NCBI RefSeq assembly: GCF_900109545.1
Contig: NZ_FOAP01000025.1
Span: 1 to 64,000 of the forward strand
Direction: 5' to 3'
Source: Stigmatella aurantiaca
GTDB taxonomy: Bacteria > Myxococcota > Myxococcia > Myxococcales > Myxococcaceae
Length of the DNA: 64,000 nucleotides
Shown: piece after piece, positions 3,318-40,213 of the stretch
Position numbering within the stretch: the stretch's first letter is position 1
Layout: every line of letters begins with the position of its first letter
The notes under the pieces: generated by a model
Database searches by the model: none
The model's input: only the letters and a program-made list of their open reading frames with translations
Told to the model about the DNA's origin: nothing
Translations under genes and position numbers: made by a program

Positions 3318-3701
3318 ATGACGGCATGGATGCTCATTGGCTTGGCGTCACTCAGCACGGCGGCGGCGGAAGTACAGGTCTCCACGGCCACCTGCACGGC
3401 CACCATCACGGGGCCGCACTTCGGTCTACCGCCCAACGGCTTGATGTACTTCCACTTCACCACCACGTGTGATGTTCCGGTGGAGAGCATGACGGTGACG
3501 GGGACCATCACCGGGACGAGCGGAGGCTCCGGATCCAAGACCTGTACCAACACGAACACGTGCCGGTACACGCTGGGCATTCATGCCTCGTCGCCAGGGA
3601 GCTGGGCCTGGACCAACAGCACCGTCTACACGGGCGGGACGGTCTCGGCGACGGGCGGCATGACCTGGGGCTCTCTGGTTCAGTCACCCACTCCGTTCTG
3701 A
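3318..3701 (+). CDS. Small secreted protein of unknown function
   Basis: 127 residues starting at ATG 3318, seven bases after GGGAGG. An in-frame ATG at 3261 has no binding site. A short signal peptide (MTAWMLIGLASLSTAAAE) is followed by a Thr/Gly/Ser-rich, beta-rich sequence with four cysteines in two close pairs, TTCDVP and KTCTNTNTCRY. I do not recognise the family; composition and size suggest an extracellular beta-sandwich. Its 3' end overlaps the convergent DinB-like gene by 18 bases. Confidence 0.7.
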   Translation: MTAWMLIGLASLSTAAAEVQVSTATCTATITGPHFGLPPNGLMYFHFTTTCDVPVESMTVTGTITGTSGGSGSKTCTNTNTCRYTLGIHASSPGSWAWTNSTVYTGGTVSATGGMTWGSLVQSPTPF

Positions 3702-4288: not shown

Positions 4289-6367
4289 ATGAAGAACCGG
4301 ACCCTGGAGTTTCCCGCGGCGCGACGCGATCCAGAGCGTGGCTACACGCTGCTGGGCAGGTGGTTTGACGATCCTTATGCCTGGTTGGAACGGCTCGATG
4401 CCCCGGAGACCCAGTCATGGCTCTCCGCGCAGGAGGCCGTCACGCGCGCTGTCCTGCAGGCGGTGCCGGGACGCGAAGTGTTGCGGAATGCGGCCGCTCG
4501 CTCGGCATGTTACGCCCGGCTTTCGCCGCCGGTTCCGGCCGGGCCGCCCGGGCGTGAGTTCTTCTGGCAGGCGGATGCTGACGGCGAGAAGCTCAAATTC
4601 ATGCTCCGGCGTGGCAAGGGCGCACCGCTCGAAACGGTGCTTGACCCGAACACGTGGGCGAGCAACGAGGCCCTGGTTTTCGCGGTGCCGTCACCTGACG
4701 GGATGCGGCTCGCGTTCGGGAAGTCCGTTGGAGGGACGCATGCCGCGATCATCCATGTGCTCGATGTCGAGACAGGGCGGCTGCTTCCTGACCGGCCTCG
4801 TGGAACGAGCCACGCATCTGTGGCGTGGAGGCCCGATGCGTCGGGGTTCTTCTACGCGGCGTGTCCCGAGCCGGGCGAGGTGCCTCCCGGCGACGAGGCC
4901 CACTGGAACGCGATTTACGAACACAGGCTTGGGTCAGGTGAGCCTGCCCGCAGGGTCTTCGGCGACGAGCACGAGAAAGCGTACTGGTGCTCTGTCCAGA
5001 TCAGCGAGTGCCGCCGCTTCGCCGTGCTCTACAAGTGGGACTATGTGCACGCCAACGCTGTCTACCTTCTGCGTCTCGCGGATGACAGGCTCGTGCCGGT
5101 GGCGCCCACCCTTCGGGCTCTCAACCAGGTGCAGGTCATTGGGGACTTGCTGCTCATCCGGACGGACCTCGATGCGCCACGTGGCCGGCTGTGTGTAGCA
5201 CCGCTGACTGCGCCAGAGCACTGGCGGACGCTCATCCCAGAAGGCTCGGACACGCTGCAGACCGTTACAGGCGTTGGTGGCCGACTCTACGCCGTCTACT
5301 CGCACGCGGCCTCGCATCGCGTGCGCATTCACGCCGAAGATGGCACCTACCTTCGCGACCTCCCGCTGCCTGCCCTCGGTTCTGTCAATCGCAACGAAGG
5401 GGAAGGCACCGTCAGCGGCATCAGCGGTGCCTGGAGCGGTGACGAGGTGTGGGTGAGCTTCATGTCGTATGTGCAGCCGCCCTCGGTCTACCGGTATGAC
5501 TTTGCGGCGGATCGCCTGTCTCCGTACCATGTCCCCGATGCCGGGCTCGACGCGTCCAAGTATGTGACGGAGCAGGTCTGGTACGAGTCGCTCGACGGTA
5601 CGCGGGTCTCGATGTTCCTCGTTCACAGGAGGGATTTGCCTCGGGATGGGCGCCAGGCCGTGCGTCTGAGCGGCTACGGTGGCTTCAACATCGCACTGGA
5701 ACCGCGCTACTCGGCGCTCAACGCGGCCTGGCTGAAGCTGGGCGGCGTGCTCGCCTTCGCCCACGTGCGTGGTGGCGGAGAATACGGACGCGCCTGGCAC
5801 GAGGCGGCATGCAAGACACGGCGGCAGAACGCCTTCGACGATTACATCGCGGCGGCCCGGTGGCTTGTCTCGGCGGGCTATACGACGCCCTCCAAGCTCG
5901 TCTCGCGCGGTAACAGCAACGGCGGGTTGCTCGTCGCCGTCACCGCCATGCAAGCGCCCGAGGCCTTCGGCGCTGTCTATTGCCGGGCGCCCATCCTCGA
6001 CATGCTGCGCTTTCCGAATTTCAGCCACCTGAGTTCGGCGACCGTTGAGTTTGGCTCCCCTGAAGATCCCGTGGAGGGCGCGTATCTCGCGGGATATTCG
6101 CCCTATCACAACGTCCGGGCCGATCGCCGTTATCCCGTCATGGCCTTCGCGCCGGCGTTGAACGACCAGGTCGCTCCGCCACATGATCCGCTCAAGATGG
6201 CCGCTAGACTTCAAGCGGAGGGCACCCAGGGAGGACCCTATTTGCTGCTGCCGCTTCGCGACTCGGGACACGGCGGGGGGACCACGCTGACGGCGCTCAT
6301 CGAGCAGGATGCCGATGAGCTGAGCTTCTACTGCTGGGCTCTCGGCCTCGCGCCGCCCGAGCCGTGA
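4289..6367 (+). CDS. Prolyl oligopeptidase family (S9) serine peptidase
   Basis: 692 residues from ATG 4289, which has GGAGG eight bases upstream; the longer in-frame start at 4223 lacks one. There is an N-terminal S9 beta-propeller domain (RYDD-like WFDDPYAWLERLDAPETQSW) and a C-terminal alpha/beta hydrolase domain. The nucleophile elbow is GNSNGGLL near residue 550, the acid lies in ALNDQVAPPHD and the catalytic histidine in LRDSGHGGG. All three members of the triad are therefore present. The family cleaves short peptides after proline. No signal peptide is evident after start correction, so it is probably cytoplasmic or periplasmic by an unseen route. Confidence 0.9.
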   Translation: MKNRTLEFPAARRDPERGYTLLGRWFDDPYAWLERLDAPETQSWLSAQEAVTRAVLQAVPGREVLRNAAARSACYARLSPPVPAGPPGREFFWQADADGEKLKFMLRRGKGAPLETVLDPNTWASNEALVFAVPSPDGMRLAFGKSVGGTHAAIIHVLDVETGRLLPDRPRGTSHASVAWRPDASGFFYAACPEPGEVPPGDEAHWNAIYEHRLGSGEPARRVFGDEHEKAYWCSVQISECRRFAVLYKWDYVHANAVYLLRLADDRLVPVAPTLRALNQVQVIGDLLLIRTDLDAPRGRLCVAPLTAPEHWRTLIPEGSDTLQTVTGVGGRLYAVYSHAASHRVRIHAEDGTYLRDLPLPALGSVNRNEGEGTVSGISGAWSGDEVWVSFMSYVQPPSVYRYDFAADRLSPYHVPDAGLDASKYVTEQVWYESLDGTRVSMFLVHRRDLPRDGRQAVRLSGYGGFNIALEPRYSALNAAWLKLGGVLAFAHVRGGGEYGRAWHEAACKTRRQNAFDDYIAAARWLVSAGYTTPSKLVSRGNSNGGLLVAVTAMQAPEAFGAVYCRAPILDMLRFPNFSHLSSATVEFGSPEDPVEGAYLAGYSPYHNVRADRRYPVMAFAPALNDQVAPPHDPLKMAARLQAEGTQGGPYLLLPLRDSGHGGGTTLTALIEQDADELSFYCWALGLAPPEP

Positions 6368-6492: not shown

Positions 6493-9400
6493 CTACCGCC
6501 TGGGCGCGATGACCACTCTCACCCCGTCGAGCCACGTCTTGTGCTCGTCCGTGTAATAGAGGTAGGCGCGGCTGGCCGGGCCTGTGTAAGTGCCAGGAAC
6601 CGCCGCCATCAGGGACAGGGGAACGCTGAGCCGCTTCCGGGGCTCCATTCCCCGCCAATAGAGGACCACGTCGCGGCCGATCACTTCGTAAGAGTCCACC
6701 TTTTTCTGTTTCACCAGCTCCTTGAGCTGATCGTGCCGTACTTCCAGTCCCCCAGGCACACCGAAGATGGCCACCGACGTGGGCAGCGCCTCATCGGTCT
6801 TGTTCGAGACGGTGACGATGGCCTCGGTGGGCTCTCCCTCGGTGAGCTCGCTCTTGGCCAGGGCCGCCTCCAGCGTGAGCTTCGTCTCCGGCGAGCTGGC
6901 GGGAATCATCGCGTGATAGACGACCTCCATCGAGTACGGGAGCTCCGAGCCGCCCTCCATCCGCAGCTCGAGCTTCCGCTGCCCTGGGGCGAGCAGCTCG
7001 GACACGTCGGGGAGCTTGAGGGCCTCCTGGGCGGTGGCGGTGAAGGGGACCGCGCTGCCCACGGGCTGGCCATCGACATAGATGCGCACCGAGCCCGGGG
7101 CGCGCTTCGCCGCGCGCGCCTTGTCGTAGGCGATGATGGCGCGCAGCGCGAGCACCGTGCTCTGGGTGGAGCCGTAGCGGCCTCCCTGGCACGAGTCCGC
7201 CAGGAACTTCATCGAGCGCTGCACGTTCGCCGCGTGCGTGGGCTCCCGCAGCCAGGCCAGTACCGCCAGCGCGGTGGTTTCGATGGCCAGGGCGTCGCCC
7301 TGGCTGCCGACGATGGACTGTGTGCCTCCCTCCACCGTGCCCCCGGCGTTCTGCTTTTCGGCCAGCCGCTGCATCAGCTTCCGGGCCTCGGTGTGGTCTC
7401 CCGTGAGCGCCATCACGTTCGCCGCGAGCGCCAGCACGTAGCTGTTGCGGCTCTTCGCCGCCGACTGCTTCAGCGCGGCCACCTCCCGGGACAGCTCTTT
7501 CGCCGGCGAGGCCTGGCGGCCCGCGCTCTCCATCAGGGCCCAGAGGATGTAGGCGTTCGAGGTATCAGGATCCTCCAGCCACGTGTGCAGCGCCCGGCGC
7601 TTGCGCGAGAAGCCTCCCTGGCCATCGCGCTGCCGCAGCAGCCACGCCCGCGTGCGCTCGAGCATCGCCGCGTCCACCTCGCGCACCTGCTGCATGTCGG
7701 TGAAGTGCAGCAGGCCGAAGGCCGTCAGGGCCTCGTGGCCGGGGTTCTCCCCGAACCACTCGTAGCCCTTCTCCGGGCACTCGAAGCCCGTCAGCCGCTT
7801 GTAGCCCGCGTCCAGCTTCTCGCGCGCCGAGGCCACCAGCTTCGGATCCACCCCGCTGTGGGACTGGAAGTACTGCTGCGCCATCGTCATGGGGTAGGTG
7901 GTAGAGCTCGTCTGCTCGAAGCAGCCCGAGGGCTCTTGAATGAGCCGCGCCAGGGACTCCGTCATGTTGGCCAGCGGGGTGGGGTACACGGTGATGGACG
8001 TCTTGACACTGCCGCGCACCAGGTTGGCCGGGAGGCTCACGGTGTGGGCCGCGGGGTTCCGGGCCGACAGGAGCCCTCCGAAGGAGGCGCGCAAGGGAAA
8101 GCCTTGCGGTTGGATGGTCAGCGTGCGCGTCACCGTGTCCGCGTAGTCTCCAGCGGTAGCCGCGAGCGTCAGCGCGAGGGGCTTCGACTCCTGGCCAATC
8201 TTCAGCTCGATGAGGCGCCGGGCGCGCTCTTTCGCGGCGAGGTCCACCGTCCCCACGCTGGAGACGCGGACATCGCCCGTCAGGAGCGCTTTCACCGATG
8301 CGCCCCGGAGGGGGGCCGCGGTGCCATTCACCAGGGCCACCGGGAGCTGGATGACGTCTCCGGAGGTGACCTCCAGCGGGAGCTTCGGCTCGGCGTAGAA
8401 AGGCTGCACGGATTCGAGGCTTGCCACCGTGGAGCCGAGCGCGCCATTGGCGCCCACCGCGCCGGCGAAGGCCTTGAAGGTGGTGACCGAGTCATTCAGC
8501 GCGAAGGAGACGCGGGCCTCGCCCGTTTGGGCATCGGTGCGCACCCCGGCGTTCCAGTACAGCGTCTCCGCGAAGTCCACGCGGTCGCCCGGCTTGCGGC
8601 CAGGCCGCACGGTGTGGGCGTACTCGCGGAGGTAAACCACGGGCGGCTGCCACGCCCGTTTCTCCATCATCAGCCCGTCTTGGAGCACGGGCCGGGGGGC
8701 CCTTCGCTCCGCCCGGTTCAGGGCGGGCTTGGCCGCGGCCAGATCTTGTTTGGCCTTGGGGGCAGGGGCGGCCGGTGCGGCCGGGACGGGAAGTGGTGCG
8801 GCCGGGGGGGGAAGCGGTGCAGCCTGGGCGACTTCTTGGAGCACGGCCCCTCCGAAGAGGGATTCGGGCATGGCGGTGGGCGTGGGCACGGCCTGGACCC
8901 GGATCGCCAGCGCTCGCTGGGCCGCGTCTCCATGCTGGGAGAGGAACTGCTCGGGATGGGCGAGCGCGAACCTGCGCCAGCCTTGGGTGCCCAGCAACAG
9001 GTCCACGGCGGCCTTGGCCTTGGGGTTCTTCTCGTCGAAGTAAACCTGGGCGTCGGCGAGTTCCTGCACCTCGGGCTCCAGCAGCACCATCACCGGGAGC
9101 GAGGGGGCCTGGTCGCGTTTTTCGATGAGCTCCAGCACCGCATCGTCGGTGACGGTGAGCATCACCAGCGCGGAGACCGGCTTGCCGTCCTGGGTGGTCC
9201 GGGCAGTGAGCCGCACCGTGTCCCCCGGCACGTAGCCCTGCTTGTCCGGGCGAAGCTCGACGGTGAGTGCCTTCGCGGGTTGACGGAACACGAGCCGCTC
9301 CGCCAGGGGGCGGCCGTCCGGAGCCCAGAGCGTGGCGACGAGCACGCCGTCAGCGCCCTTGGGATCGAGCGTCACGGTGCCCTGGGGGCCCACGTTGGCC

Positions 9401-31027: not shown

Positions 31028-31770
31028 CGGATGGCCCCCTGGTTCGGCAAGGAGGGATTGCCATTCGGGTTGAGTCCACCCGGATTGATGCCGCCCGGAT
31101 TGATGCCACCGGGGTTGGTGCCGCCCGGGTTGGTGCCCGTGGCGCTGCCGTTGCGGTCCGAGCCCGGCCCCAGCGACACCATGTGCGTCACCACGTCGAT
31201 GCTCTCCACCTGGTTGCCTTCCTTCCAGGTGACGGTGAGGTGCACCTCGCGCACGGCCTTGGTGAGCTGGTCCACCATCTGGGTGAACATGGGCTGCGCC
31301 ATGCCCATGGCCATGCCCGCCATGCCCCCGCCGGCCGGCGTCTGGCCACTGGGCAGGTTGGTGCCCTGGCCGTCCTTGCCCGAGGAGCCACCAAACATGG
31401 CGCCCAGGCCGCCCAGGTCTCCCATGTCACCGATGGGCAGGTTGAAGATGGCGCCGATGAGCTGGTCGGGCGAGACGCCGTCCGTCTTGGGCGCGATGAT
31501 CTTCGCGCGCCACTTGAAGCGGGGCCAGCCCTCCTCGGAGAAGTCGCCGGACTCCTCGTCATCGTCCACGGAGAAGCCGTCGTCGTAGAGCTGCTGCTCC
31601 AGGTCCGTCATCTTCGAGCGGGCCAGGAGCGAGGCCACCGTGAGGTGCTTGCTGTAGACGTGGTTGGAGACGGCGCCGGAGTTGAGATCGAAGATGGCCA
31701 TGAGCGCCAGGGCCAGGATGGCCAGCGCCACGACGGTCTCCAGCAGGGTGAAGCCGCGGGTGCGCTTCAT
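31024..31770 (-). CDS. gspI: Minor pseudopilin GspI with repeat tail
   Basis: 248 residues, about twice the usual GspI length. Prepilin motif MKRTRG/FTLLETVVALAIL with Glu5. The central part carries an inserted Gly/Met-rich segment (GGMAGMAMGMAQPMFTQ), then HLTVTWKEGNQVESIDVVTH, the usual last strands of GspI. A C-terminal tail follows with five [TIL]NPGG-like repeats. Start at ATG 31770, overlapping gspH by four bases. The insertion and tail should protrude from the tip complex. Confidence 0.88.
   Translation of the reverse strand: MKRTRGFTLLETVVALAILALALMAIFDLNSGAVSNHVYSKHLTVASLLARSKMTDLEQQLYDDGFSVDDDEESGDFSEEGWPRFKWRAKIIAPKTDGVSPDQLIGAIFNLPIGDMGDLGGLGAMFGGSSGKDGQGTNLPSGQTPAGGGMAGMAMGMAQPMFTQMVDQLTKAVREVHLTVTWKEGNQVESIDVVTHMVSLGPGSDRNGSATGTNPGGTNPGGINPGGINPGGLNPNGNPSLPNQGAIR
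31061..31135 (-). repeat. Five tandem 15-bp repeats encoding NPGG pentapeptides in gspI
   Basis: Five 15-bp units starting at 31061, 31076, 31091, 31106 and 31121 differ mainly at wobble and one residue position. They encode NPGG-T, NPGG-T, NPGG-I, NPGG-I and NPNG-L in order (gene orientation reads from the high coordinate). In-frame unit length means copy-number change would not disrupt the gene. Confidence 0.8.
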
Positions 31771-32462
31771 GACTTGGGCACCTCCAGCTCCTCGCCCGCC
31801 ACCATCACCTTGCCGGTGAGTGGCGAGAGGCTGAGCGTCCAGACGTTGTCCCCCTGGCGCACGTACACCTGGGCCTTCTCCGTGTAGCCCTGGGGGAAGA
31901 AGTAGAGGTAGGCCACGCCCTCGTCCACCGGCTCCTTCTGCTGGCGCGTCCACACCGAGAGGCTCACGCTGCTGGGCAGCTCCCGCGGCGCCAGCTCCTC
32001 GCTGGTGTAGCTGGAGAAGCGCGCCGCCTCCTCCACCCGGTTCTGCTCCTGCGCCATCAGCTCCTGGAGGCTCGGGGCCCCGCCGCTGTTGGAGGAGGTG
32101 AAGTTGCGCCGCTCGTCGGCGCCGTAGCGGGCCTCGTCCTCGCGCGAGCGGTTCTCCGTCTTGAGGGCCTCGTCCCGGTCGCGCGCCGTGGTGACGCCGC
32201 CCGCGGCGCACTCGGCGTGGTAGCGCACCACCTCCTCGCTCTTGGGGTTGGGCAGCTCGAACACCAACCGGCACGTCTTTCCCGACAGCGCGGCCGTGTC
32301 GTAGAGCGAGCGGATGATGCCCGCGAGCTCCGCCGCGGCCGCCTTGGCCTTGCTGCCGGTGATGGCGCCCACGCTCGTCACCACCGCGGAGAAGAGCACC
32401 GCGGCGATGAGCAGCGCGATGGCGATCTCGATGAGCGTCAGCCCGCGCTCTGCACGTCTCAT
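31767..32462 (-). CDS. gspH: Minor pseudopilin GspH
   Basis: 231 residues from ATG 32462. Prepilin motif RRAERG/LTLIEIAIALLIAAV with Glu5. The globular domain contains a charged insertion (RDRDEALKTENRSREDEARY) and the late strands VAYLYFFPQGYTEKAQVYV. GspH joins the pseudopilus shaft to the tip. Four-base overlaps with both neighbouring genes indicate coupled translation. Confidence 0.87.
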   Translation of the reverse strand: MRRAERGLTLIEIAIALLIAAVLFSAVVTSVGAITGSKAKAAAAELAGIIRSLYDTAALSGKTCRLVFELPNPKSEEVVRYHAECAAGGVTTARDRDEALKTENRSREDEARYGADERRNFTSSNSGGAPSLQELMAQEQNRVEEAARFSSYTSEELAPRELPSSVSLSVWTRQQKEPVDEGVAYLYFFPQGYTEKAQVYVRQGDNVWTLSLSPLTGKVMVAGEELEVPKS

Positions 32463-32893
32463 GGCCGCGTCTCCTCGAGCCCGCCGCTGGTGACATCCGC
32501 GGCGTCTCCCTCTCCCCCCGGTACCCCGTCCGAGCCATAGGAGATGATGCCGGCGCGCGCGTCGTTCATCCGGTACACGTACGGGTTGCCCCACGGGTCC
32601 ATGGGCGGGGTGTCCATCACCTTGGCCTGGATGAGCGGGGTGAAGCCCTCGGCCTCGGTGGGAAAGCGCCCCGTGGCGCGGTGGAAGGCCTGGAAGTAGC
32701 CCTCCAGGCGGCGAATCTGCGCCCGCGCCCGGCGCTGCTTCTGGCCCAGGGCGTCATCCTGCGTCAGGTACACCAGCCCGAAGGCCAGTGCCGTGCCGAG
32801 GAAGAAGACGATGGCGAGCGCGATCCGCCCTACCCGGGCCGGGTGGGCCGTGCTCACGGGGGGCTGGGGGGAGACGTGCTCGGCCATGGCCAT
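32459..32893 (-). CDS. GspG-like protein without prepilin cleavage site
   Basis: 144 residues (ATG 32893; a second ATG at 32887 fits the GGAGG slightly differently). One membrane span (~20-42, GRIALAIVFFLGTALAFGLVY) is followed by a GspG-type C-domain: LEGYFQAFHRATGRFPTEAE, DTPPMDPWGNPYVYR and ISYGSDGVPGGEGDAADV. The last motif matches the calcium-binding loop of major pseudopilins. The N-terminus has no G/F-T-L-x-E signal, so it cannot be processed and polymerised like a normal pseudopilin. It lies between gspG and gspH and may be a stationary membrane-bound partner of GspG. Confidence 0.75.
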   Translation of the reverse strand: MAMAEHVSPQPPVSTAHPARVGRIALAIVFFLGTALAFGLVYLTQDDALGQKQRRARAQIRRLEGYFQAFHRATGRFPTEAEGFTPLIQAKVMDTPPMDPWGNPYVYRMNDARAGIISYGSDGVPGGEGDAADVTSGGLEETRP

Positions 32894-32906: not shown

Positions 32907-33326
32907 CTACTTGCCGGCCGGGTTCGCGTCGCGCGACGAGATGTCCGCGTCCTGGCCCTCGCCGCCCGCGGTGCCGTCGCCACCGTAGGAGATGATGACG
33001 GGCTTGCCGCCCTCGTTCAGGTACACGTACTCGTTGTTCCAGGGGTCCCTCGGGATGGCCTCCAGCGCCTGGATCTCCACGAGTCCCCGCAGGCCCGTGG
33101 CCGTGTCGGGGTAGTTGCCCTTCTTCGTGTAGTAGAGCTTGAGCGCGTTCTGGATGCTCTTGATGTCCAGCTCGGCGCGGTCCCGGCGGGCCTGGTTGAG
33201 CTGGGGGATGACCGCCACGCCCACCGCCGCGGCGATGAGGCCGAGGATGGTGATAACGACCATGATTTCGATCAGGGTCATGCCGCGGTTGCGGCGGCGG
33301 CGCTGCTGCTTCTTCGTCGTGTCCAT
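32907..33326 (-). CDS. gspG: Major pseudopilin GspG
   Basis: 139 residues from ATG 33326 (GAGG six bases upstream; ATG 33329 is adjacent and equally in frame). Prepilin motif RRRNRG/MTLIEIMVVITILGL with Glu5. Then the GspG body: IKSIQNALKLYYTKKGNYPD, IPRDPWNNEYVYLNEGGK and calcium loop YGGDGTAGGEGQDADI. It polymerises into the pseudopilus shaft that pushes substrates through the secretin. Confidence 0.95.
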   Translation of the reverse strand: MDTTKKQQRRRRNRGMTLIEIMVVITILGLIAAAVGVAVIPQLNQARRDRAELDIKSIQNALKLYYTKKGNYPDTATGLRGLVEIQALEAIPRDPWNNEYVYLNEGGKPVIISYGGDGTAGGEGQDADISSRDANPAGK

Positions 33327-33405
33327 CATGTCCCTCGATTGACTTTCTGGCAGACGCTGGCGGTCTGCCCATGCCTTTGTGTCAAAAGTCTCAACAGTGC
33401 CGCGC

Positions 33406-33552
33406 TCAGGGCTCGCCGCGGGGGGCGGCCGGAGCGCTGGCCTGCGAGTCCGAAGCGTACAGCGCGGCACCCACCCCCATCAGGGCCGCCGCCAGGGCCA
33501 GCAGGGCCGCCAGGGTGACGCCTTGGACCCACCTGTTGAGCGTGTCGTTCAT
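33406..33552 (-). CDS. 48-residue single-span membrane protein within the gsp operon
   Basis: Complete short gene, ATG 33552 to TGA 33406. AAGAGG begins immediately after the gspF stop codon and lies seven bases before the ATG. One membrane span (~10-33, QGVTLAALLALAAALMGVGA) and a small Ser/Ala/Pro-rich tail. No family recognised. Tight placement between gspF and gspG suggests an accessory of the assembly platform. A gap of 79 bases to gspG allows a separate ribosome site there. Confidence 0.68.
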   Translation of the reverse strand: MNDTLNRWVQGVTLAALLALAAALMGVGAALYASDSQASAPAAPRGEP

Positions 33553-33563
33553 TGCCGCGCCTC

Positions 33564-34820
33564 TTACCGGATGGCCGAGTTCACCTGCAGGATGGGCATC
33601 AGGATCGAGAAGGCGACGAATGCAATCACCGCGCCCATGAACACGATGAGGATGGGCTCGAGCAGCGAGGTGAGGGCGCCGATGCGCACGTCCACCTGTG
33701 TCTCGTAGCTGTCCGCCACCGAGAAGAGCATCTCCTCCAGCTGGCCGGAGCGCTCGCCGATGGCAACCATGTGGTAGACGAGCGGGGGGAACTCCCCGGA
33801 GCGCTTGAGCGGGTTGGCGATGCTCTCGCCCTCGCGGATGGCATCGCGCGCCTTCTCCACCACGTCCGAGAGCACCGAGTTGGTGATGACCGCCTTGACG
33901 ATGTCCATGGCGGCCAGCAGTGGCACGCCGCTCTTGAGCAGCGTGGCCAGCGTGCGCGCGAAGCGCGAGATGGCCAGCAGCCGCACGAGGCTGCCGAACA
34001 CGGGCGCCTTGAGTGCGAACCGGTCCCAGATGGGCTTGCCGCGCGGACTGCGCAGGAATGCCACCAGCCCGAAGATGCCCAGGCCCAGGGTGGGGAAGAT
34101 GAGGAACCACCAGTTCTGCAGGAAGTTGCTCACCGCGATGAGCACCCGCGTGGTGAAGGGCAGGGTGGCGTTCATCGTCTCGAAGATCTTCGTCACCTTC
34201 GGCACGACGATGGTCATCAGCAGCACGAGGATGCCGCCGCCCACCACCAGCATGATGGCGGGGTAGAGCATGGTGCCGACGATCTTCTGGCGCAGCTTGG
34301 CCTGGCCCTCGGTGAAGTCCGCCAGCCGCTGGAGCACCGTGTCCAGCGCGCCCGAGGCCTCGCCGGCGCGCACCATGTTCACGTAGAGCGAGCCGAACAC
34401 CTTCTGGTGCTGGCCCAGCGCGTCGGCGAGCGAGGAGCCCTCGTTCACCCGCTGCTTGATGTCGGACAGGATGCGCTTGAAGCGCTCCTTCTCCACCTGG
34501 TCCACCAGCGCGGTGAGCGACTCCACCAGGGTGACGCCCGCGCCCAGGAGCGTGGCGAGCTGGCGCGTGGTGATGGCGATGTCCTCGGTGGTGACACGGC
34601 CGCGCGCCACCTTGCGCAGGTCGATGTCACGCTCGGCGAGCGCGGCGCCCGCGCCCTTGCGCACCGCGCCCCGGCTGCCCTCGGCCTGGCCGAGCACGTC
34701 CGTGAGGAAGATGCCATCCTTGCGCAGCTGGCTGCGCAGGGTCTTGGGCGAGTCTGCCTCCAAGAGCCCCTTGATGGTTTTTCCCGCGCTGTTGAGACCT
34801 CTGTACTCGAAGACCGGCAT
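33564..34820 (-). CDS. gspF: Type II secretion inner-membrane protein GspF
   Basis: 418 residues, the usual length. Starts MPVFEYRGLNSAGKTIKGLL. Two repeats of the T2SSF domain are visible (ITTRQLATLLGAGVTLVESL near 85 and RFARTLATLLKSGVPLLAAM near 285), with three membrane spans. It is the polytopic core of the assembly platform and contacts GspE and GspL. Confidence 0.95.
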   Translation of the reverse strand: MPVFEYRGLNSAGKTIKGLLEADSPKTLRSQLRKDGIFLTDVLGQAEGSRGAVRKGAGAALAERDIDLRKVARGRVTTEDIAITTRQLATLLGAGVTLVESLTALVDQVEKERFKRILSDIKQRVNEGSSLADALGQHQKVFGSLYVNMVRAGEASGALDTVLQRLADFTEGQAKLRQKIVGTMLYPAIMLVVGGGILVLLMTIVVPKVTKIFETMNATLPFTTRVLIAVSNFLQNWWFLIFPTLGLGIFGLVAFLRSPRGKPIWDRFALKAPVFGSLVRLLAISRFARTLATLLKSGVPLLAAMDIVKAVITNSVLSDVVEKARDAIREGESIANPLKRSGEFPPLVYHMVAIGERSGQLEEMLFSVADSYETQVDVRIGALTSLLEPILIVFMGAVIAFVAFSILMPILQVNSAIR

Positions 34821-40197: not shown

Positions 40198-40213
40198 AGC
40201 AAGCCAAGTGCCA
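40198..40213 (-). promoter_or_regulatory. Sigma-54 (-24/-12) promoter for the gsp operon
   Basis: Minus-strand sequence TGGCACTTGGCTTGCT matches TGGCAC-N5-TTGCW at every position, with GG and GC exactly ten bases apart. The predicted start is near 40187, about 20 bases before the gspC ATG. The gene immediately upstream encodes a sigma-54 activator. Confidence 0.85.

Follow-up and report, generated by a model that had tools for sequence, protein, structure and literature searches.

A membrane-anchored GspG-head protein lacking a prepilin motif is encoded between gspG and gspH in type II secretion operons of Myxococcaceae-level genera

Within a 64,000-nucleotide stretch of DNA from Stigmatella aurantiaca (NZ_FOAP01000025.1; referred to in the following as the window), the type II secretion system (T2SS) operon contains, between gspG and gspH, a gene for a protein of 144 amino acids that joins the head domain of the major pseudopilin GspG to a membrane anchor in which we found no prepilin motif. 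This protein, designated here as G2 (32459..32893, minus strand; ATG at 32893, stop codon at 32461-32459), had been noted in a preliminary description of the window as a GspG paralogue inside the gsp operon that keeps the GspG head and calcium-loop sequence on a plain anchor, and our data bear out each of these points. We tentatively regard G2, with somewhat less than even confidence, as a tethered T2SS accessory that docks on pseudopilins and either limits the length of the pseudopilus or anchors it; we infer this topology, the lack of cleavage, the docking and the role from the comparative analyses reported below.

The gsp operon is located on the minus strand of a genome of 9.37 Mb and runs from gspC (at 40207) through gspD, gspE and gspF, the gene for the inner-membrane platform (33564..34820), into a gene for a small single-span membrane protein of 48 amino acids (33406..33552; a neighbour of G2 and not a part of it). 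It then continues with gspG (32907..33329), G2, gspH (31767..32462) and gspI, J, K, L, M and N, the identity of gspN resting on its place only as it has no Pfam match. While gspG codes for a canonical major pseudopilin (RG-MTLIE) and is, most likely, the parent paralogue from whose duplication G2 arose, gspH codes for a canonical prepilin. The G2 reading frame begins 13 nt past the gspG stop codon, and its own stop codon overlaps the start of gspH by 4 nt (ATGA, 32462-32459), an arrangement present in 34 of the 64 loci measured (L032, a stretch without gspF, was left out, and the gspH start was not found in L031). As read from their sequences, GspG, GspH, GspI and GspJ of this operon possess a Gly-[M/L/F]-T-L-x-E site; GspK has Gly-Val at the expected cleavage site, lacks Glu5 and contains a T2SSK domain. 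Since all five pseudopilins are present beside it, G2 substitutes for none of them.

Orthologues of G2 without internal stop codons occur in 65 of 147 genomes of the class, and these represent all 65 genomes examined from nine Myxococcaceae-level genera, Myxococcus and Corallococcus included; the gene order gspG-G2-gspH is maintained in every one of them. A profile search across 195 genomes of the phylum recovered the same 65 proteins with 201-249 bits, the best GspG-type match reaching 101 bits, and a divergent G2 copy from outside the nine genera (G092; 104 bits) that is also positioned between gspG and gspH. Among the 31 other genomes of the family, the gspF locus was found in 29 (for G088 and G089, no gspF passed the threshold applied), and in 27 of these loci gspG is followed by gspH with no T2SSG open reading frame between them; the remaining two harbor the divergent copy of G092 and a degenerate T2SSG remnant (G122), respectively. 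Absence from closely related operons, a scenario raised in the preliminary description, consequently does not apply to the nine genera and does apply to most of the other loci of the family; G2 is not a core component because these 27 loci manage without it. The remnant in G122, which is read on the minus strand of L100 at about positions 3360-3633 between gspG and gspH, is perhaps a decayed or an independent duplicate. In a tree of the GspG family (83 rows, with 17 of the 65 G2 proteins plus the divergent copy taken in), G2 forms a single clade of 18 rows (100/96). The G2-bearing loci likewise form a single clade, of 22 rows (99/95), in a tree of GspF (50 rows, 21 of them G2 loci, one the divergent locus and the other 28 without intact G2, G122 included; rooted at the midpoint for drawing). 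One gain of G2 with no loss among the genomes examined is the simplest reading. When plasmids were searched, 34 records matched, all with less than 60% identity; of the five listed, three carry a gspG annotation and two carry none.

The relationship of the G2 head to GspG is evident both from its sequence and from its predicted fold. G2 matches the T2SSG domain of Pfam (E-value of 2.4e-15), which was found in all 65 orthologues, and it scores 47.2 bits against the GspG equivalog TIGR01710, under the cut-off of 88.85 bits that the adjacent GspG passes with 95.3 bits. The T2SSK domain, the mark of GspK, gave no match in G2, and the operon has a GspK of its own. The best structural match to an AlphaFold model of G2 (74-row alignment, pLDDT 87.4, superseding a single-sequence run with a pLDDT of 65.6) is the Vibrio vulnificus GspG protein 3gn9_A, with a Z of 12.3 and an rmsd of 3.3 across the 96 residues 46-141, and Foldseek compared the model with GspG at an E-value of 4e-6. 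Since 71 of the 74 alignment rows are GspG proteins, the model may be pulled towards GspG; yet the sequence alone also points to GspG.

The model comprises a helix (residues 21-43), a break (residues 44-50, pLDDT about 71), a stalk helix predicted to be periplasmic (residues 51-74; 32672..32743) with the invariant residues F67 and R72, and the GspG head. Residues 119-134 (32492..32539) correspond to the GspG calcium-loop sequence YGSDGVPGGEGDAADV, of which G120, D122, G123, G126, G127, G129 and D133 are invariant in all 65 orthologues. From an alignment to EpsG, we take D122 and D133 to be putative calcium ligands, and the head of G2 is probably stabilized by calcium. Alteration of the coordinating aspartates of GspG is described in a review as crippling the system (PMC10574481). 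Close to the C-terminus, an SGG segment (residues 136-138; 32480..32488) contributes G137 and G138, which are invariant in G2 and not in GspG; altogether, 29 residues, the DPWG motif among them, are invariant in the 65 orthologues.

The N-terminal part of G2 begins with a predicted cytoplasmic tail (residues 1-21; 32831..32893), which is variable and, on the membrane side, Arg-rich, with R20 present in 53 of 65 orthologues. It leads into a conserved [Gly/Ala][Arg/Lys/Gln] pair at residues 22-23 (32825..32830; G64 A1, R58 K4 Q3), which alone qualifies as a candidate site of atypical cleavage. There follow a single hydrophobic anchor (residues 24-43; 32765..32824), in which A37 and F38 are invariant and A33 is found in 61 of 65 proteins (an A-x3-A packing motif), and the helix break (residues 44-50; 32744..32764) with the invariant signature T44-x-D46-x-x-L49. 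The N_methyl model had no match in the window copy, nor in any of the 65 orthologues at an E-value of 0.1 or below. A strict scan of the whole open frames for G/A-x4-E plus a hydrophobic segment detected the prepilin motif in 0 of 65 G2 frames versus 65 of 65 gspG controls, and the G2 count stayed at 0 of 65 when any residue was accepted at -1 and +1. Three matches emerged from a looser scan of the G2 frames, all of them in the Ser/Thr/Pro-rich tail, and they are false because Ser, Thr and Pro had been counted as hydrophobic. Eight or fewer open codons lie upstream of the chosen start in 15 of the 65 frames. A missed upstream start that restores a prepilin motif, a possibility considered in the preliminary description, or a frame error is ruled out by the motif-free whole frames. 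Among the best matches listed for loci of GTDB genomes, a sample that is biased by this very mode of selection, 80 of 83 open reading frames with at least 40 bits contain the prepilin motif, as do all 78 in the 77 loci not titled as myxobacterial; the three motif-less ones are G2 of Myxococcus vastator, G2 of Corallococcus exercitus and one Pyxidicoccus protein.

Does the missing motif imply that G2 escapes processing? In the register of the model, residue n of G2 corresponds approximately to residue n-20 of GspG (residue 46 of G2 to residue 26 of GspG); with this offset, R20 of G2 takes the -1 position and A25 the +5 position. Structural register and alignment agree in placing G22 at +2 and an Arg at -1, a position held in prepilins by the Gly (or Ala) decisive for cleavage; the Gly there has been reported to be critical (PMC4471445). 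The +1 residue of GspG, when left unrestricted, is M, F, I, L or V in all 161 rows in which a site was found, and never R, K or Q (162 rows were examined; the site was missed in L154, which begins at its +1 Phe). The N_methyl model, which itself favours a pattern of F/M/L at +1 plus Glu5, finds ten prepilins in this genome, and all of them display F, M or L at +1 together with Glu5. At residues 22-23, the G2 protein of G042 carries Ala-Gln, and the divergent G092 copy reads Gly-Val-Arg at this site. We do not accept the conservation of G22 as proof of cleavage, as both the register and the +1 chemistry oppose it. On balance, we judge it more likely that G2 remains uncleaved.

The preliminary description went further and held that G2 can neither be cut by GspO nor enter the filament as a pseudopilin. 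This wording is too strong: Glu5 is reported to be always dispensable for prepilin processing, and Glu5 mutants to be able to co-assemble with wild-type subunits (PMC4471445), and the [Gly/Ala][Arg/Lys/Gln] pair is kept in all 65 orthologues. With tip subunits lacking Glu5 having been described (PMC10191384), and with the GspK protein of the same operon likewise devoid of it, G2 might instead be an atypical minor pseudopilin that is cut by prepilin peptidase after G22, exposes an Arg at +1 and serves, without Glu5, as a rare or GspK-like tip subunit. We judge this to be unlikely in view of the absence of a charged +1 residue from the GspG rows, the uniform +1 and Glu5 residues of the ten genomic prepilins (subject to the preference of the N_methyl model just mentioned), the +2 rather than -1 position of the conserved Gly, and the variants of this site in G042 and G092.

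Residues through which pseudopilins touch each other are retained in G2. In PulG, neighbouring subunits are reported to be held together by contacts of E44 and D48 with R87 and R88 (PMC6692295), and the D48/R87 contact is described in a second study as well (PMC4434193). The corresponding salt bridge between subunits of the myxobacterial GspG reads K48/E87, a polarity opposite to that of D48/R87 in PulG. GspG proteins of G2-bearing genomes have K48 in 63 of 63 cases and an acidic residue 87 in 63 of 63 (63 of the 65 proteins were counted, as the leaders of L022 and L023 missed the pattern); for family genomes without G2, both counts are 26 of 29. GspG rows from outside (67 of 68 counted) possess D or E at position 48 (48 of 67 rows) and, less often, K or R at position 87 (29 of 67 rows), the alignment at the latter position being less sure due to a loop insertion. 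G2 follows the polarity of its own GspG, with K or R at position 48 in 61 of 65 orthologues and D or E at position 87 in 48 of 65. Position 48 is represented in G2 by residue 68 (K60 R1 Q4, the window copy being one of the four with Q), position 44 by E64 (E63 D2), and position 87 of PulG, the acidic partner site of position 48, is aligned with D94 (32612..32614; D35 E13 K11 of 65). Changes fixed in G2 itself lie nearby and are, in GspG numbering, F47 (65 of 65), E44 (63 of 65) and R52 (65 of 65). The kept contact polarity would fit a docking of the G2 head on GspG; part of it may simply have been inherited from GspG.

From these features, a working model for G2 can be sketched. Its uncleaved N-terminal anchor (N-in) would fix the protein in the inner membrane, with the head residing in the periplasm, and this head, having retained the docking face of a pseudopilin, would be able to engage GspG (or GspH) on the assembly platform. 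Assembly of the pseudopilus is reported to run from tip to base, the Glu5 of a subunit to pair with the N-terminal amine of the one above it, and PilT to have been lost in T2SS (PMC10191384). Because it lacks Glu5 and, if uncleaved, also a free amine, G2 should not be drawn in as a normal subunit and no subunit should be added below it; we propose, therefore, that the tethered protein caps or seats the pseudopilus at its base, by which the length would be limited or the filament held in the membrane. A fixed subunit without Glu5 or free N-terminal amine would best fit such a stop or anchor. That a copy of a filament subunit has been turned into a permanent stop, and thus into a built-in length control in a family without the PilT motor, is a more speculative extension to which we attach rather low confidence. 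A membrane-retained look-alike of its subunit would offer a genetic handle on how pseudopilus length is set and the filament reset without a retraction motor, and this in Myxococcus, a genus tractable in the laboratory. The preliminary description had envisaged a fixed GspG-like accessory, and with a plain-anchor paralogue conserved in the operon this was the right kind of idea; any of the roles of nucleator, chaperone and stop that it listed may apply.

Of these, a chaperone or storage partner acting ahead of assembly would pair with GspG or GspH in the membrane, keep its client folded and calcium-loaded and pass it on to the GspE/F/L/M platform. The contact residues, the calcium-loop sequence and the place in the operon that G2 shares with the pseudopilins are compatible with such a task, and the small-x3-small motif of its anchor (A33, A37) is suited to helix pairing. 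However, a full GspG head is not required for this role, and the gsp loci of most relatives lack the presumed helper, so that we consider it a doubtful assignment.

Anchored GspG heads are not confined to gsp operons. We found ten prepilin-less GspG-head proteins in nine stretches of Myxococcaceae-level genomes outside these operons, three of them adjoining paired genes for HtrA-like proteases. These three are encoded directly after two look-alike protease genes in genomes with the Myxococcus genus code (L198, 5192-7669; L203, 2724-5228; L209, 5407-7899), the trypsin/PDZ (HtrA-like) assignment by Pfam referring to the L198 pair, the sole pair scanned. The genome under study itself encodes two motif-less GspG heads on plain anchors, one beside a gene for a di-haem oxidoreductase-like protein (contig C9; L192, 7415-6927, minus strand) and one beside a response-regulator/cyclase gene (contig C3; L193, 7457-7062, minus strand); no gsp genes were seen beside either. 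In L205 (G076), two such genes are found close together (5158-5583 and 6760-7200, both on the plus strand). A shared origin of G2 and the other anchored heads would correspond to a tree node of 96/0 with long branches. GspG heads are seemingly usable outside filaments, a property hidden by domain-only annotation. By analogy with these proteins, and considering the G2-specific invariants F67, R72 and G137-G138, G2 might be a substrate or envelope receptor whose head has abandoned its pilus function and binds cargo, GspC/GspD or calcium; the placement of G2 between gspG and gspH in every one of the 65 genomes argues against this, and we find it quite improbable.

Median NG86 dN/dS values, which are rough here as third codon positions are very rich in G+C, amount to 0.60 for G2, 0.40 for gspG and 0.47 for gspH, and G2, evolving faster than gspG, is therefore less constrained. 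The faster evolution of G2 and the remnant at the same place in G122 could be taken to indicate a functionless, decaying duplicate, but this is highly improbable for a gene that is intact in 65 of 65 genomes and hence lost in none of those examined from nine genera, preserves 29 invariant residues and yields dN/dS values of 0.12-0.35, all under 1, for the four close pairs compared.

How does G2 compare with known proteins? It resembles GspG/EpsG/PulG (PF08334, TIGR01710) in the fold of its head, the calcium-loop sequence, the DPWG signature and its place beside gspG, but differs from them by the lack of a class III signal and of Glu5, by the R, K or Q that follows the conserved Gly, and by a score under the TIGR01710 cut-off. 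With GspK it shares the lack of Glu5; GspK, however, has a Gly-Val site and a T2SSK domain, neither of which is present in G2, and G2 has a GspG head. The mitochondrial GspG1/GspG2 proteins of Naegleria and others are, like G2, GspG paralogues, and belong to a system in which maturation is unusual; they are described as keeping a polar anchor and Glu5; the peptides of Naegleria GspG1/GspG2 reported as detected lie past the processing site (PMC8134430). Searches of open-licence papers turned up no account of a bacterial gsp operon that encodes a GspG without a prepilin motif. While the family and the domain are known, the tethered, motif-less and operon-fixed form appears to be undescribed.

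In M. xanthus, gspD corresponds to MXAN2514 (PMC3222651), and Nla28 is reported to bind a promoter at MXAN2511, which belongs to a T2SS locus of 10 genes whose activation sets in at 1 h of development (PMC9765219). If the genes are counted downwards from gspD, gspG would correspond to MXAN2511 and G2 to MXAN2510, and the 10-gene locus probably starts with gspG. Lastly, the 48-residue protein encoded between gspF and gspG has no Pfam match in its window copy. A search with the pattern MND..RW[IV]Q revealed it in 63 of 65 G2-bearing loci, a looser pattern in 7 of 29 other loci, and a protein search in 16 of 39 relatives, G084 and G122, both missed by the pattern, being among them. It is probably an unnamed T2SS microprotein that predates G2.
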